This document shows positions 11,192 to 46,463 of a stretch of DNA of 64,000 nucleotides, one piece after another (the stretch's first letter is position 1; each line of letters begins with the position of its first letter). The translations under genes were made by a program, and so were the position numbers. This stretch comes from Sharpea porci (GTDB lineage Bacteria; Bacillota_I; Bacilli_A; Erysipelotrichales; Coprobacillaceae). The notes under the pieces were generated by a model. That model ran no database searches. It was not told where the DNA came from and saw only the letters and a list, made by a program, of their open reading frames with translations. The stretch is taken from positions 124,001-188,000 of the forward strand of contig NZ_VUNM01000001.1 of NCBI RefSeq assembly GCF_009695655.1, read 5' to 3'.

Positions 11192-12316
11192 TTATCCCCA
11201 AACTTCTTCAGCGACAAGCTTAACAAGCTGGATTTTCTTCCATTGTTCATGTTCAGTAAGCTTGTTGCCAATCTCACATGAGGCAAAGCCACATTGTGGA
11301 GAAAGATAAAGACGATCCAATGGCACATACTTGCTGGCTTCATGAATACGGGCAATAATATCTTCTTTCTTTTCAAGCAATGGTGATTTTGTCGTCACTA
11401 GGCCAAGAACAACTTTCTTGTCACCTGAGACATACTTAAGTGGTTCAAAGCCACCACTTCTTGCATCATCGAATTCTAAGAAATATGCATCAACATTTTC
11501 CTTTTCAAACAAGAAACTTGCCACATCATCATATCCCCCGCTTGCCGCATAAGTCGAATGGAAGTTACCACGACAAACATGAGTTGTGATTGTAAGGTCA
11601 CTTGGCTGATTGTCAATAACAGCATTGTTGATATCTAAGAATTCCTGCTTGATCTTATCTAAGCCTGCCTGGTCTGTATTGAAGAACTGTGGGCCTCTTG
11701 GGTCAACTAAAAGTCCCCATGAACAGTCATCAAGCTGCAAGTTACGACATCCTGCTGCATAGAGTTCATCGATAAAGGCACGATAGACTTTAATCACGTC
11801 TTCATGGAATGCTTCTAAGTTATCATAATATTTTAATGTATTCTCTAAGGCAAAAGGCATTTCAAACTGTTCTAAGAACTGTGCTGGTGCAGGGATTGTC
11901 TGCTTAGCGACAGTCTTCTCGTCTTCAAATGACTGGACGAACTTGAAATGATCGACAAAGGGATGATGCTTATAGCTAAGCTTACCTGTGAGATATGTAT
12001 CATCAATCATTGCATCTTCTCCCGCAAATGGTAAACCTGTTGTTGTAGGCTGGTGGCCTACACCTTCAAATGCCCACATGAAGTCTAAATGCCATGTTTC
12101 TCTACGGAATTCACCATCTGTCAGAACTCCTAAGCCGGCTTCTTTCTGTTTTTGAATAAGGTCAGTGATGGCCTGATCTTCAATCTTATGTAATTCCTCT
12201 TCACTGATCTTTCCTGCTTTATAATTTTTACGTGCTTCCTTTAAATATTCTGGTCTTAAGTATGAACCCACGACATCAAATCTATGGGGTGTTTTTCTAT
12301 CATATGTAATTGCCAT
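11192..12316 (-). CDS. Cobalamin-independent methionine synthase-like protein (YxjG/YxjH family)
   Basis: This 374-residue protein resembles the C-terminal catalytic half of MetE. It retains RFDVVGSYLRP, TDGEFRR, the LQLDDCSWG segment, a zinc-type THVCRGN motif and SPQCGFAS with a second Cys. Bacillus YxjG/YxjH are of this size and act in methionine metabolism with an unknown methyl donor. The ATG follows AGGAGG. The genome also has a B12-dependent MetH in this window. There is no S-box leader; instead an inverted repeat lies just upstream. Confidence 0.85.
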   Translation of the reverse strand: MAITYDRKTPHRFDVVGSYLRPEYLKEARKNYKAGKISEEELHKIEDQAITDLIQKQKEAGLGVLTDGEFRRETWHLDFMWAFEGVGHQPTTTGLPFAGEDAMIDDTYLTGKLSYKHHPFVDHFKFVQSFEDEKTVAKQTIPAPAQFLEQFEMPFALENTLKYYDNLEAFHEDVIKVYRAFIDELYAAGCRNLQLDDCSWGLLVDPRGPQFFNTDQAGLDKIKQEFLDINNAVIDNQPSDLTITTHVCRGNFHSTYAASGGYDDVASFLFEKENVDAYFLEFDDARSGGFEPLKYVSGDKKVVLGLVTTKSPLLEKKEDIIARIHEASKYVPLDRLYLSPQCGFASCEIGNKLTEHEQWKKIQLVKLVAEEVWG

Positions 12317-39824: not shown

Positions 39825-40685
39825 ATGAAAATCATAGATATACTAAATCAGGATAAAGTAACGCTTTCTTTTGAAGTTTTTCCTCCAAAACTGACAAAGA
39901 ATTATGATGATGTGGCTTTTAAAGCCAAGGAAATAGCGAAATTACATCCGGACTTCATGAGTGTGACTTATGGTGCTGGTGGTGGAACGAGTGAATATAC
40001 CTTAAATATTGCCAAGGAAATAAAGGAACAAGAGAATGTTGAAGTGATGGCTCATCTCACATGTGTTTCTTCTTCTAAAGCCCATGTGCATTCAATGATT
40101 AATCGTTTGAAAGAAAATCATATTGAAAATATCATGGCTTTACGTGGAGATATTCCGGTAGGTGGCTCTCAATTCCACGACTACCAACATGCCTCAGAGC
40201 TTATTAGTGAAATTAAGGCAAGTGGGGATTTCTGTATTGGAGCAGCCTGTTATCCAGAGGGCCATCCTGAAGCAAGCAATAAGGATATGGATATCAAGAA
40301 CTTGAAGAAAAAGGTGGATGCTGGGGCAGACTTCTTAACAACCCAGATGTTCTTTGACAACAATGTCTTCTACAACTTCCTCTTCAGGGCAAGAGAAGCA
40401 GGTATTGATGTGCCTATTGTGGCAGGTATTATGCCTATCACAAGAGGCATTCAGGTTAAAAGGGCTAGAGAGCTATCAGGCTGTTCAATGCCACAGCGTT
40501 TTATCTCGATGGTGGATAAGTTTGGTGATAATGATGAGGCAATGAAACAAGCCGGTATTATCTATGCTTCTGAACAAATTATTGATTTGATTGCTTCTGG
40601 TATACAACATATTCATGTCTATTCAATGAACAAGCCTGATGTTGCCAAGGCTATTATGGAAAATGTATCGGAGATTATAAAATGA
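39825..40685 (+). CDS. metF: 5,10-Methylenetetrahydrofolate reductase
   Basis: This 286-residue TIM-barrel flavoprotein reduces methylene-THF to methyl-THF, the methyl donor of MetH. It has LSFEVFPPK at the N-terminus, MSVTYGAGGGT, LTCVSSSKAHV, ALRGDIP and FLTTQMFFD. It is the first gene of a six-gene unit and overlaps the next by 4 bases (ATGA). Confidence 0.93.
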   Translation: MKIIDILNQDKVTLSFEVFPPKLTKNYDDVAFKAKEIAKLHPDFMSVTYGAGGGTSEYTLNIAKEIKEQENVEVMAHLTCVSSSKAHVHSMINRLKENHIENIMALRGDIPVGGSQFHDYQHASELISEIKASGDFCIGAACYPEGHPEASNKDMDIKNLKKKVDAGADFLTTQMFFDNNVFYNFLFRAREAGIDVPIVAGIMPITRGIQVKRARELSGCSMPQRFISMVDKFGDNDEAMKQAGIIYASEQIIDLIASGIQHIHVYSMNKPDVAKAIMENVSEIIK

Positions 40686-41332
40686 TTAATGTTAGAAAAC
40701 ATGAAATCTATCGCTATCTTGGTTATTCTAAACGTAAGCAGGTGGAACCTACAGAAGAGATTGATGCCCTTATTGATGAGTGTATTCAAGATTTGCAGAA
40801 AGTGATAACGCCCCAAAGTGTCTATAAGCGGCTTAAGCTTAACTGGTTAGATCATGAGACCATTGAAGTCAGTGGTATGCAGGTAACTTCCAAGAGTCTT
40901 GCCAAGAATCTAGCAGGCTGTCAGGAAGTCTTTCTCTTTGGAGCGACGATTGGGATTGGCGTGGATCGCTTGATCAAACGTGCTGAATTGACCAAGATGG
41001 CAAAGGCTGCTATCTATCAGGCAACAGGAGCAGAGATGGTGGAATGTGTCTGTGATGAACTGAATGAAAAATTACGCCAGGAAGTTAGCCAAGAAGGCCT
41101 CTTCTTAAAGCCACGCTTTTCTCCTGGTTATGGGGGTACACCATTAACTTTACAAAGAGACTTTGAACGTATTCTCAAGATGAGTAGTATTGGGATTACT
41201 TTAACAGATACATGTTTAATGGTTCCAAGTAAGAGTGTGACAGCCTTTATTGGAATTACTGACAAAAAAACAAAGAGTCTAAGTGGATGTGCAGCCTGTG
41301 ATCAACAGGACTGTCCATCAAGAAAGGAGTAA
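40682..41332 (+). CDS. Stand-alone methionine synthase reactivation-domain protein
   Basis: This 216-residue protein corresponds to the C-terminal SAM-binding activation module of MetH, with RFSPGYGGTPL as the SAM site. The extra C-terminal CAACDQQDC motif is often seen in the stand-alone form of Firmicutes. It would reductively methylate cob(II)alamin of the MetH encoded 2 bases downstream, which lacks this domain. Confidence 0.88.
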   Translation: MINVRKHEIYRYLGYSKRKQVEPTEEIDALIDECIQDLQKVITPQSVYKRLKLNWLDHETIEVSGMQVTSKSLAKNLAGCQEVFLFGATIGIGVDRLIKRAELTKMAKAAIYQATGAEMVECVCDELNEKLRQEVSQEGLFLKPRFSPGYGGTPLTLQRDFERILKMSSIGITLTDTCLMVPSKSVTAFIGITDKKTKSLSGCAACDQQDCPSRKE

Positions 41333-41334
41333 GA

Positions 41335-43710
41335 ATGGCTTTACGAGATCGATTAGGAAAAGAATGGTTGTTTTTTGATGGTGGAACGGGCACCATTCTA
41401 CAAGACTGGGGACTTGGAGCGGGAGAATTGCCTGAAACCTGGAATCTTAACCACCAAGATGAAATCAGAAAGCTCGCTAAAGGTTACTTTGAAGCAGGCA
41501 GTGATATTGTCAACGCGAATACTTTTGGGGCCAATCGTCTTAAATATCCAGAACATCTTGAAGAGATTGTCAGAAATGCGATTACTCTCGCAAAAGAAGG
41601 ACGTCATGAAGCAAAACGTGATGAGGATGGCTATGTGGCTCTTGATTTAGGGCCAACAGGAAAGCTCTTAGAACCATTAGGTGACCTGCCTTTTGAAAAA
41701 GCGATAGAGCTTTATGGTGAAGTTGTGCGCATTGGGGCAAGTGCAGGAGCAGATCTTGTTCTTATTGAGACAATGACCGATGCCTATGAAATTAAAGCAG
41801 CTGTTCTAGGCGCAAAAGAAAATGCCCAATTGCCAATTCTTGTCACTGTTACTTTTGATGAGAAAGGCAAGCTTTTAACGGGAGCGACACCGGAAACTAT
41901 TGTGGCCTTGTTGGAAGGATTAGGAGTGGATGCCTTAGGGATCAATTGCTCACTTGGTCCTCAGCAACTCATGCCGATTGTTAAAAGAATGACAGAACTC
42001 TCATCACTGCCAATTATTGTCAATCCCAATGCTGGCTTACCTAAAAGTGTCAACGGCAAGAATGTTTATGACATGCATGAAGATGAATTTGCGCAATTAA
42101 TGGGAGAGATGGCAGAATTACCTGTGCAGGCACTAGGTGGATGTTGTGGTACAACACCAAGTTATATCCGTAAGGAAATTGCCGAAGTACGCAAGCATCC
42201 TTTCCCAAAACCTACAAAAAAACATCATACCTTTGTCACTTCCTTTTCAACAGCTGTCGAGATTGGGACAAAACCACGTATTATTGGTGAACGTATCAAC
42301 CCCACAGGCAAAAAGAAATTCAAGGAAGCTTTAAAGAATCATGATATCAACTATATTCTCTCCCAGGGCTTAGCCCAGGAAGATGCTGGTGCGGATATTC
42401 TTGATGTGAATGTTGGTCTTCCTGAAATTGATGAAGTATCAACCCTTGTTGAAGTTGTCAAGGAATTACAAAGTGTAACAGGCCTCCCTTTACAAATTGA
42501 TACCGGTAATGTAGAAGCAATTGAAAAAGCAATGCGTATTTATAATGGGAAATGCATGTTGAATAGTGTCAACGGGAAAAGGGAAACAATGGAAGCCATC
42601 TTCCCCATTGTCAAGAAATATGGTGCTGTTGTCGTTGCATTGTTGTTGGATGAAGAGGGAATTCCTGATAATGCTGACAAGCGTATAGAAATTGCCAAGA
42701 AGATTTATGCGACAGCTGATGAATATGGTATTTCCCATGATGATATTGTCTTTGATGGTCTTGCCATGACCGTTTCTTCTGATCCTCATAGTGCACTTGT
42801 CACATTAGAAACGATCAGACGTATACGTGATGAATTACATGGTCATTCTATTCTTGGTGTTTCCAATATTTCCTTTGGCCTTCCACAGCGTTCTATTCTT
42901 AATGCCAACTTCTTCACCATGGCGATGCAGAATGGTCTCTCCTGTGCCATTGTCAATCCGAATACAAAAGCAATGATGGATAGCTATCGGGCTTTCAATG
43001 CCTTAATGAACTATGATACTAATTTCACAGACTATATTGAAGCCTATGCCAATGTTGAAAGTGCTCCGGTTCCTAAAAATACGGCTTCCATGTCCCTTTA
43101 TGAAGCGATCAAGCGTGGTATGAGTCAAAATGCTGCAAAAGCTACAAAACTGGGTCTAGAAACAAAGGATGGTTTGACGCTTATTAATGAGGAGCTCATT
43201 CCTGCTCTTGATGAAGTGGGACAGGGCTTTGAAAAAGGCACCCTCTTCCTCCCACAGCTTTTAATGAGTGCTGAAGCTGCTAAAGCTGCTTTTGGTGTTG
43301 TCAAAGAAAGCATGGCCGATGTTGAACAGGATGTGAAAGGTCGTATTATTCTTGCCACAGTCAAGGGTGATATTCATGATATAGGTAAAAATATTGTTAA
43401 GGTCATGTTGGAGAATTATGGTTTTGACGTGATTGATTTAGGAAGGGATGTAGATCCTGAAATTATTGTTGAAACAGCTATTAAAGAGAATATTCGACTT
43501 GTAGGTCTCTCAGCCTTGATGACGACAACAGTTGTCAATATGGAAGAGACAATCAGACAGCTTAGAGAAAAGAAACCTGATACGCTTATTTGTGTTGGAG
43601 GAGCTGTTATGAATCAGGATTATGCTGATGAGATTGGGGCTGATGCTTATTGTAAAGATGCGATGGCAACAGTTCATTATGCCAATAAGGTCTTTGGCAT
43701 TGAAGAATAA
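41335..43710 (+). CDS. metH: Cobalamin-dependent methionine synthase without reactivation domain
   Basis: This 791-residue enzyme transfers the methyl group of methyl-THF to homocysteine through cobalamin. The homocysteine barrel occupies about 1-290, with zinc Cys residues in GINCSLGP and GGCCGTTP. The pterin-binding barrel spans about 310-575 (IIGERINPTGKK). The cobalamin cap and binding domains span about 585-791, with the Co-ligand His in KGDIHDIGKNIV near 680. The fourth domain of the E. coli enzyme is supplied by the preceding gene. Confidence 0.94.
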   Translation: MALRDRLGKEWLFFDGGTGTILQDWGLGAGELPETWNLNHQDEIRKLAKGYFEAGSDIVNANTFGANRLKYPEHLEEIVRNAITLAKEGRHEAKRDEDGYVALDLGPTGKLLEPLGDLPFEKAIELYGEVVRIGASAGADLVLIETMTDAYEIKAAVLGAKENAQLPILVTVTFDEKGKLLTGATPETIVALLEGLGVDALGINCSLGPQQLMPIVKRMTELSSLPIIVNPNAGLPKSVNGKNVYDMHEDEFAQLMGEMAELPVQALGGCCGTTPSYIRKEIAEVRKHPFPKPTKKHHTFVTSFSTAVEIGTKPRIIGERINPTGKKKFKEALKNHDINYILSQGLAQEDAGADILDVNVGLPEIDEVSTLVEVVKELQSVTGLPLQIDTGNVEAIEKAMRIYNGKCMLNSVNGKRETMEAIFPIVKKYGAVVVALLLDEEGIPDNADKRIEIAKKIYATADEYGISHDDIVFDGLAMTVSSDPHSALVTLETIRRIRDELHGHSILGVSNISFGLPQRSILNANFFTMAMQNGLSCAIVNPNTKAMMDSYRAFNALMNYDTNFTDYIEAYANVESAPVPKNTASMSLYEAIKRGMSQNAAKATKLGLETKDGLTLINEELIPALDEVGQGFEKGTLFLPQLLMSAEAAKAAFGVVKESMADVEQDVKGRIILATVKGDIHDIGKNIVKVMLENYGFDVIDLGRDVDPEIIVETAIKENIRLVGLSALMTTTVVNMEETIRQLREKKPDTLICVGGAVMNQDYADEIGADAYCKDAMATVHYANKVFGIEE

Positions 43711-43726
43711 GAAAAGGGGAAAAATG

Positions 43727-45202
43727 ATGAAAAAATATCTAGGAAGTTTATTTGTATTGCTTTTCACATGTGCACTGACGCTTACACCAGTCAATGCCGC
43801 TTACGATACCACAAAGCTTGATCAAGCCTACAACAAGGCTGTCAGCTATTACCAACAGAAATCTAAAAAAGGGCTAGAAAGCTATGATGATATACTTGCG
43901 AGTGAATCAGTTGGTGTCGAAGCTGACCAGGCGCTTAAAGCTGAAGAAACCCTCAACGAGTATATCGCAACAGTTCGTCTTGATGACCAAAGTAAGACAG
44001 ATATTGGGGCTTTAGGAAAGAATATTGTCCTTACATGTTTAATGGGCAAGGATCCTAAGAATATCAATGGTGTCAATCTTGTTGAGGAATTAGAAAAGCG
44101 TGTCCGTGATGATGGCTCTATCGTCAATTCAACTGGTGCCAACAATGATATTTGGGCACTCAATGGTCTATATGTCGTTAATTCAACTAAACAGAATGTC
44201 GTTGGTAAGCGCCTTGCCAAGGAAGCACTGAACAATGGAGCATACTGGTATGAATATCCAGCAGGTGTTAAGTGCGCCGATGCGGATACGACAGGCTGGG
44301 CAATTGAAACACTTTCCCTTGTCAATAAAACAGCTTACAAGACAACAATTGATAAAGCTGTTGCTTTCTTAAGAACAGCCACAAAGAATATAAACAATCA
44401 ATCAGTTTTCACTCAATATGATGATGGTAATGCCAATACACAAGGAGCAGTTCTTGAAGGACTGGCAGTCGCTGATCGTAATGGTTTATTAAATGATCAA
44501 TATAATGCCTTAAATGCCGCTAATCCGTATGATTATTTACTGACATGGCAATTGGATGACGGTTCATTTAAAGCTGAGAATTATGATGTGAACTATCAGC
44601 CATTGGGTATTGGTTACAATAATTATGCGACACGAGATGGTGTTCTTGCTTTAGGCACTTATAAGAATGGTTCTGTCTTTGATAAGGCAAAGCGTGACTA
44701 TGACAAGACATTACATCCTGTTAAAAACTATCAGATAACAAGCGGCCAAGATGCCAAGATTCAAAATGATCAAGACCATATACTCACAACGAACCTTCCA
44801 TCAACAAACATTCAAAGTATTCTTGTTGATGGGAAAAAGCTTGCTGCTTCAGACTACAATGTGAATACTTCAATTACCCTTTCAGCTCATTTCCTTAAAA
44901 ACTTACCTGATGGTAAACATACACTTATGATTGAAGGAACAGATGGCAATGCTTCAACAACATTCACACTCTTCACCAAGCAGACAAAACCCGCTCAAGT
45001 GACTGAAGAAAAGACTGAAAAGAAAGCAGAAATTCCTGGAACAGAAGTCAAGAAAAACACTGAAGCAGTAAGCAAGAAGAAAACAAATAAGGTTGTTGAC
45101 ACGGATGATGATACAGATATCATTATTTGGATTATGGGACTTGTTGTGGGATTATCTGGACTCATCTTATTAAGAAGATATAGATATGTGGAAAAAGCTT
45201 GA
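43727..45202 (+). CDS. Secreted alpha/alpha-barrel (prenyltransferase/transcobalamin alpha-like) protein with Ig-like domain and C-terminal anchor
   Basis: This 491-residue protein has a signal peptide ending TPVNAAYDT. An alpha-helical repeat domain of about 290 residues has the periodic pattern of squalene/prenyltransferase and transcobalamin alpha barrels (DIWALNGLYVV, DTTGWAIETLSLV, NTQGAVLEGLAVA, TRDGVLALGTY). An X2/Ig-like domain follows (about 325-405, NLPDGKHTLMIEG), then a charged linker, a membrane helix and a basic tail. The start has AGGGGA just upstream. It lies 16 bases behind metH and overlaps the DUF4430 gene. I infer external cobalamin binding; a role in other ligand binding is not excluded. 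Confidence 0.78.
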   Translation: MKKYLGSLFVLLFTCALTLTPVNAAYDTTKLDQAYNKAVSYYQQKSKKGLESYDDILASESVGVEADQALKAEETLNEYIATVRLDDQSKTDIGALGKNIVLTCLMGKDPKNINGVNLVEELEKRVRDDGSIVNSTGANNDIWALNGLYVVNSTKQNVVGKRLAKEALNNGAYWYEYPAGVKCADADTTGWAIETLSLVNKTAYKTTIDKAVAFLRTATKNINNQSVFTQYDDGNANTQGAVLEGLAVADRNGLLNDQYNALNAANPYDYLLTWQLDDGSFKAENYDVNYQPLGIGYNNYATRDGVLALGTYKNGSVFDKAKRDYDKTLHPVKNYQITSGQDAKIQNDQDHILTTNLPSTNIQSILVDGKKLAASDYNVNTSITLSAHFLKNLPDGKHTLMIEGTDGNASTTFTLFTKQTKPAQVTEEKTEKKAEIPGTEVKKNTEAVSKKKTNKVVDTDDDTDIIIWIMGLVVGLSGLILLRRYRYVEKA

Positions 45203-45926
45203 GAAACAGACAAAGTTTGTCATTGTTCTTGTCATTGTTGCCTTGATTGCGATTGCTGGTATTGGCATCTACCATAGTTTCCATCCACCTATCACCACTG
45301 CAATCAAACAACCTCATCCAAAGAAAAAGACAAGCAAGAAAGATGTTGTTGTAGAAAAGAAAAAGGAAGAAGAGACAACCCCCTCTTCTTCCTCTACAAC
45401 CTCATCACCTACCAAGCAGGAAGAAACACCATCCAATCCCCCTTCCAACAAAACAGCTGAAAACAGCCCGACAACATCATCTTCGCAAAAAGACACAAAA
45501 ACAAAGAAAAGCACAACTCCATCACAAGAAAAAAACCAATCCACCCCAACTCCACAAACAAACAATAATAACCAGAACCAAACAAAACAAACGACACAAA
45601 GTCAGCCTGTTCAAGAAGAACCGGTTGAAGAAAAGATTCATCTGACAATTACAGGCATTAATCAGAATTACTATGATCATGATATGACTATGAAAGAAGG
45701 CGCAACGGCCTATAGTATATTGACTGATACAGGTCTTCCTTATACAAAAACAGGTTTTGGTTCAGCAACATATGTGCGTTCGATTAATGGTCTTTATGAA
45801 AAAGATCATGGTCCCTTATCAGGCTGGATGTATAAAGTGAATGGTGTGGCTCCTAATGTCAGTGCGGCAAGTTATCATTTGAAAAAGGGTGATCAGGTTG
45901 TCTGGTACTACGTCAACTATAATTAA
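45186..45926 (+). CDS. DUF4430 (transcobalamin C-terminal-like) extracellular protein on a membrane anchor
   Basis: This 246-residue protein has an N-terminal membrane helix (about 10-28), a low-complexity Ser/Thr/Pro/Lys/Gln spacer of about 110 residues and a C-terminal domain of about 95 residues. That domain carries the DUF4430 hallmarks (GATAYSILTD, GPLSGWMYKVNGVAPNVSAA, KGDQVVWYYV). This domain is the bacterial relative of the beta domain of transcobalamin and intrinsic factor. The gene overlaps the alpha-barrel gene by 17 bases and the transporter gene downstream, so the three are made together. I infer that the two proteins clamp cobalamin as the two domains of transcobalamin do. Confidence 0.82.
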   Translation: MWKKLEKQTKFVIVLVIVALIAIAGIGIYHSFHPPITTAIKQPHPKKKTSKKDVVVEKKKEEETTPSSSSTTSSPTKQEETPSNPPSNKTAENSPTTSSSQKDTKTKKSTTPSQEKNQSTPTPQTNNNNQNQTKQTTQSQPVQEEPVEEKIHLTITGINQNYYDHDMTMKEGATAYSILTDTGLPYTKTGFGSATYVRSINGLYEKDHGPLSGWMYKVNGVAPNVSAASYHLKKGDQVVWYYVNYN

Positions 45927-46455
45927 ATATCGACCAGTTAAGGAAATTGCCTTAATTGGCCTCTTGTCCGCCTTTAATATTGCTTCCCGTATTGGCTTAC
46001 AAGCTTTACCCAATGTCAAGCCTGTTACATCGATTATTATTCTTTGTGTGATTCTATTTGGTTTAGATTTTGCTTTTAAAGTTACTGTTGTTACAACGGT
46101 TGTGTCGAATATTTTTCTAGGTATGGGTATCTGGACATTCTTTCAGATTCTCGCCTGGTTTGTGATTTGTATACTGACGGAGATCTTAGTACGTCTCTTT
46201 CATATTCGAGAGGATAAACCACATTATATGTTGATGGCTTGTTTTAGTTTTGTGATGGGCTATGTGTTTGGTTTTGTGGTATCGTTGGATCAGTTTTTGA
46301 TTGGTGGATTAGGGTTGTTTATTCCTTATTATCTGAATGGACTATTATTTGATACATTTCATGCTGTAGGGAATTTCTTCTTCTATTTGATGTTAGCACC
46401 AATTCTTTATAAAATATTTGAAAAAGATTTAAAAAAGAGTGAGCAGTATCATTAA
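45898..46455 (+). CDS. ECF transporter S component (substrate-binding membrane subunit), probably for cobalamin
   Basis: This protein of about 185 residues has five or six membrane helices. The N-terminal IALIGLLSAFNIASRIG has the small-residue pattern with which S components contact EcfT. The ATPase and T subunits must be encoded elsewhere. Substrate inference comes from the neighbours: MetH needs B12 and the two preceding genes are transcobalamin-like. The start is uncertain: TTG at 45898 has AGGGTGA before it, while a GTG at 45889 lacks spacing. Either overlaps the DUF4430 gene. Confidence 0.75.
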   Translation: MSGTTSTIIKYRPVKEIALIGLLSAFNIASRIGLQALPNVKPVTSIIILCVILFGLDFAFKVTVVTTVVSNIFLGMGIWTFFQILAWFVICILTEILVRLFHIREDKPHYMLMACFSFVMGYVFGFVVSLDQFLIGGLGLFIPYYLNGLLFDTFHAVGNFFFYLMLAPILYKIFEKDLKKSEQYH

Positions 46456-46463
46456 CTGTTCAC
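46439..46463. terminator. Bidirectional terminator of the metF operon
   Basis: GTGAGCAG, a 9-base loop and CTGTTCAC followed by a T-rich run overlap the S-component stop codon. Confidence 0.75.

Follow-up and report, generated by a model that had tools for sequence, protein, structure and literature searches.

Six genes follow one another on the forward strand of a 64,000-nt stretch of the Sharpea porci genome (NZ_VUNM01000001.1, 124,001–188,000; the window, to whose positions all coordinates below refer), and a terminator-like hairpin closes the series (Table 1). metF, a gene for a stand-alone reactivation-domain protein, and metH are followed by genes for a secreted α/α-toroid protein, a DUF4430 protein, and an ECF S component. 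The junctions are tight: metF overlaps the reactivation gene by 4 bases, a gap of 2 bases precedes metH and one of 13–16 bases (depending on the toroid start) follows it, the toroid and DUF4430 genes overlap by 17 bases, and the DUF4430 and S genes overlap by 29–38 bases (depending on the S start). The co-directional six-gene operon proposed in a preliminary description of this DNA is thus real, all six genes being found on one strand. The limit of 16 bases that it had set for the junctions holds for the gaps and the first overlap but is slightly too small in view of the two longer overlaps.

Table 1. Genes and terminator of the S. porci operon, in window positions.
Feature	Position	Strand	Basis
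metF, methylenetetrahydrofolate reductase, operon gene 1	39825..40685	+	PF02219 (MTHFR) E 3.6e-86; TIGR00676 above cut-off
Stand-alone methionine-synthase reactivation-domain protein	40682..41332	+	PF02965 Met_synt_B12 E 1.2e-7
metH, cobalamin-dependent methionine synthase	41335..43710	+	PF02574, PF00809, PF02607, PF02310
Secreted membrane-anchored α/α-toroid protein with Ig-like domain	43727..45202 (start 43724 or 43727)	+	AlphaFold, fold match, profile, hydropathy
Membrane-anchored DUF4430 protein, transcobalamin β-domain type (modeled)	45186..45926	+	PF14478 E 4.9e-21; AlphaFold
CbrT-type ECF S component (by sequence)	45898 (TTG) or 45889 (GTG)..46455	+	Profile to 6fnp_A
Terminator-like hairpin closing the operon	46439..46463	+	Consensus scan

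The homocysteine, pterin, and B12 domains of MetH were recognized by Pfam, and the activation domain was absent from MetH in the same domain search. As CbiD was found neither in the S. porci genome nor in its relatives, and no full-length MetE was found in the S. porci genome, this gut bacterium is probably unable to make B12 and probably needs to import it. The sole MetE relative found in the genome is a MetE-like protein of 374 aa (Meth_synt_2; 11192–12316), which may provide B12-independent methionine synthesis. The genome also encodes FecCD-type ABC importers, of which one has sulfite-reductase-like genes and another iron-uptake-like genes as neighbors (identified by visual inspection of their N-terminal residues), and one of these importers could be a BtuCD.

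When a profile of the S component (20 homologues) was compared with all PDB sequences, a single strong match was obtained, CbrT (6fnp_A; E 1.3e-30, 110 bits), and no other S component appeared up to E 10. The match to the Pfam family ECF_trnsprt (E 1e-5) remained under Pfam's cut-off. The ECF S component of the preliminary description thus matched CbrT and no other vitamin's S component in the PDB. Judged by sequence, it is of the CbrT type and predicted to import cobalamin. The structure 6FNP is that of ECF-CbrT from Lactobacillus delbrueckii, which imports cobalamin as well as cobinamide, and which imports B12 in vitro without partners of the toroid or DUF4430 type (PMC5997447). That substrate range would also suit a system importing a corrinoid precursor or another cobamide (e.g., cobinamide) instead of cobalamin itself, an alternative that we regard as improbable, given that MetH of the same operon requires a complete cobamide and that CbiD is missing. 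Genes for an EcfA-EcfA′-EcfT motor are located elsewhere in the genome, in an rplM-rpsI-truA cluster (EcfT, G000:C77, E 2e-49, with two adjoining ABC ATPase genes).

At the sequence level, the link between the DUF4430 protein and transcobalamin is weak (full-protein profile, E 0.13) or absent (transcobalamin was not found with the domain-only profile), and structure comparison was therefore used. The AlphaFold model of the domain (approximately residues 148–246; pLDDT 94) matched the β domains of haptocorrin, transcobalamin, and intrinsic factor with Z 12.7–14.4 and an rmsd of ∼2.2 Å over 94–97 residues, whereas the best unrelated fold reached Z 7.9; one uncharacterized DUF4430-like structure from Ruminococcus gnavus also matched above Z 8. 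According to the model, then, the DUF4430 protein has the fold of the β domain of the animal B12 carriers, as the preliminary description had supposed. Hydropathy predicts an N-terminal membrane helix (residues 11–29), followed by a long low-complexity linker, as its anchor.

The toroid protein was modeled as an α/α toroid with a pLDDT of 93. The model superposes on the barrel of intrinsic factor (Z 18.5, 3.8 Å, 238 residues), with class II terpene cyclases scoring slightly higher (Z up to 21.9; squalene-hopene cyclase, Z 21.8). The sequence profile likewise retrieved squalene-hopene cyclase (E 5e-13) and did not find transcobalamin. Pfam recognized no toroid family in the protein itself; one homologue weakly matches PF01122 (E 0.0034), and a CBM_X2 match in the protein is just under Pfam's cut-off. 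None of the 18 toroid homologues has, within its first 360 residues, the catalytic DxDD motif that marks class II terpene cyclases, which disfavors a terpene-cyclase function. Because the fold is common to many families, it does not by itself prove B12 binding. The protein is predicted, from hydropathy, to carry a signal peptide and a C-terminal membrane helix (residues 464–482); LPXTG is not present in it. Of what had been said earlier about this pair, the placement of the two domains on separate anchored proteins agrees with two genes whose products each have a predicted membrane anchor, and the likeness of the α barrel to that of transcobalamin is borne out by the superposition on intrinsic factor, although terpene cyclases score higher.

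The order toroid–DUF4430–S component (the cassette) is shared by 21 genomes of the family to which S. porci belongs and is, therefore, not due to chance. In 15 of these, a cobalamin riboswitch is located 27–94 bp upstream of the first gene of the cassette, that of the toroid protein, and this is the sole cobalamin riboswitch found in the respective genome. Five of the six family genomes lacking it carry the cassette directly after metF-act-metH (the S. porci genome itself, G000, and G001, G009, G016, and G017); the association between riboswitch absence and metH linkage has a Fisher P of 3e-4 when relatedness of the family genomes is ignored. A tree of the S component leaves room for one origin of this linkage as well as for several. 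Neither the window, nor the S. porci genome, nor the metH-linked relatives contained a cobalamin riboswitch (RF00174). A further set of 245 genomes, drawn from the phylum, contained 49 DUF4430 sites in 39 genomes. Of these sites, 36 (in 28 genomes) were preceded on their own strand, within 4 kb, by a cobalamin riboswitch, compared with 0.08 expected by chance. Related operons adjoin genes for corrinoid proteins, EcfA/EcfT, or a cobO-type adenosyltransferase. The search for co-occurrence with B12 riboswitches and metH, which the preliminary description had suggested, was thus strongly positive, and it is this conserved context of riboswitches and corrinoid enzymes that points to the ligand of the cassette. 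Nor did either of the two outcomes that would have spoken against that description and that computation could address occur: the barrel has a structural match among the B12 carriers, and the S component does not side with another vitamin's family. The preliminary description is, in essence, supported, and the last three genes of the operon are very probably a cobalamin-uptake cassette. The toroid protein might instead act at the surface as an enzyme or bind polysaccharides, with no relation to B12 and only incidentally placed in the operon. Such a role would accord with the proximity of its fold to terpene cyclases and sugar-active toroids and with the CBM_X2-like domain, but its being the first gene after a B12 riboswitch in 15 genomes, the missing DxDD motif, and its fusion to DUF4430 elsewhere (see below) make this very improbable.

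The composition of the cassette varies among lineages. A complete dedicated version in the genera g4 and g8 consists of a riboswitch followed by genes for DUF4430, EcfT, EcfA, the S component, and then a toroid or a β-propeller protein, with a cobO-type adenosyltransferase (L041) or metF-act-metH (L045 and L046) nearby. In families of other Bacilli (f3, f6, f9, and f19), DUF4430 and toroid are fused, DUF4430 first, in lipoproteins encoded in a context of riboswitch and CbrT-like S component; the next gene encodes another small protein (identified, where at all, as DUF4430), and the S-component gene comes after it. Support for cooperation of the two halves is indirect, coming from the adjacency of their genes and, above all, from this fusion. 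Alternatively, the S component could import B12 while the DUF4430 protein alone, perhaps as a dimer, binds or chaperones it, with the toroid serving as a scaffold that binds the cell wall or a partner. Consistent with such a division of labor, the toroid is nearer to terpene cyclases than to transcobalamin, a structure of the isolated human transcobalamin β domain with cyanocobalamin bound is in the PDB (5np4), the β-propeller protein takes the toroid's place in genus g8, and at three loci (L064, L101, and L102) riboswitch-linked DUF4430 and S genes have no recognized toroid nearby. Against it, most lineages have toroid and DUF4430 side by side or in one protein, and the toroid lacks the DxDD motif found in class II terpene cyclases; we consider this division of labor unlikely.

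Several further observations were made on related loci. The riboswitch-led DUF4430-EcfT-EcfA-S operons with the propeller (L045, L046, and L047) encode it as an anchored PQQ_2 protein of ∼787 residues; BtuG of Bacteroides is likewise a B12-binding propeller. At two loci (L062, 3045–8721; L037, 1449–6175), DUF4430 and S genes adjoin genes for corrinoid proteins with MetH-like B12-binding domains, and these gene sets look like corrinoid methyltransferase clusters. In Christensenella (L086, 3250–7923), a DUF4430-domain protein of 1557 residues is encoded directly 5′ of a CbrT-type S component. CbrT-like S components were also present in nine genomes in which TGA is a sense codon (G136, G095, G093, G194, G169, G082, G152, G133, and G159), mostly with a riboswitch 0.1–1.7 kb upstream; DUF4430 was not found there. 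Three small genomes (G212, G248, and G224) each contained several weak cobalamin riboswitch matches, one of them near a DUF4430-Ecf-S operon. Between two Sharpea species (window 43727–45926 versus L066 5869–8026), dN was 0.31 for the toroid and 0.27 for the DUF4430 protein, compared with 0.04–0.06 for the S component, metF, and metH (dS saturated or similar); the exposed proteins thus change 5–7 times faster.

Taken together, the operon probably encodes a split transcobalamin-like capture pair that feeds a CbrT-type S component for the benefit of MetH. The toroid and DUF4430 proteins would be exposed at the outer surface of the membrane, held by opposite kinds of anchors, and, as separate counterparts of the α and β domains of transcobalamin, would probably close on one molecule of cobalamin. 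The cobalamin (corrinoid) would then be handed over to the S component, which is predicted to dock on the shared EcfA-EcfA′-EcfT motor and to carry it inside to the MetH encoded in the same operon. Against this reading stand the higher scores of terpene cyclases for the toroid, the absence of a B12 riboswitch from the S. porci genome, the presence of FecCD-type importers, and the in vitro activity of ECF-CbrT without such partners. As commonly described, ECF importers operate with no external binding protein; if the two ectodomains do clamp cobalamin jointly, such an importer would gain a capture step outside the membrane, with implications for the bacterial origin that has been proposed for the animal B12 carriers. 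More tentatively, and as a possibility that we would not yet favor, a conserved two-part extracellular clamp of the transcobalamin type may load ECF S components, and the animal carriers may descend from it with the halves joined. B12 uptake by many gut Firmicutes has been described as unsolved, the assignment of B12 transporters in a large number of human gut genomes being called “an open problem” (PMC6593275). The cassette is a specific, widely conserved candidate for such uptake in Erysipelotrichaceae and other Bacilli.

A transcobalamin-like (SLBB) clade in low-GC Gram-positive bacteria was described by Burroughs et al (2007). Its domains are fused to toroids in either order or stand alone, occur at times as a second paralog, and have CbiO/CbiQ genes as neighbors, and B12 synthesis is frequently absent; these authors predicted that the domains scavenge B12 and that the animal proteins arose from bacterial ones (PMC1796856). 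The novelty implied by the preliminary description is reduced accordingly. New here are the separation of the two domains, a partner of the CbrT type, the figures on riboswitch association, and the linkage to metH in one operon; the cassette thereby joins the prediction of 2007 to a transporter of proven function. The S. porci system shares with those earlier ones a secreted β-grasp DUF4430 domain, an α/α-toroid partner, nearby transporter genes, and a probable lack of B12 synthesis, but differs in that toroid and β domain reside on separate, oppositely anchored proteins, that transport falls to a predicted CbrT-type S component with no motor genes of its own, and that metF-act-metH belong to the operon. 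In the literature searched, which covered few subscription journals, no experimental work on B12 uptake by way of a bacterial DUF4430 protein was found. ECF-CbrT of L. delbrueckii resembles the present system in its homologous S component, the shared group II ECF module, and an adjoining gene for a B12-dependent enzyme; toroid or DUF4430 partners are not described for its cluster, nrdJ-cbrS-cbrT-pduO (PMC5997447). BtuFCD is comparable in that B12 captured outside the membrane feeds an ABC-type importer, the capture being predicted in the present case. Its capture proteins and membrane subunit we take to be unrelated to those found here. With transcobalamin, intrinsic factor, and haptocorrin, finally, the fold of the β domain (Z 12.7–14.4) and a toroid superposing on the α barrel (Z 18.5) are held in common, but where the animals have a single soluble chain S. 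porci has two proteins, each with a predicted membrane anchor, and the toroid model scores higher against terpene cyclases than against the animal barrel.
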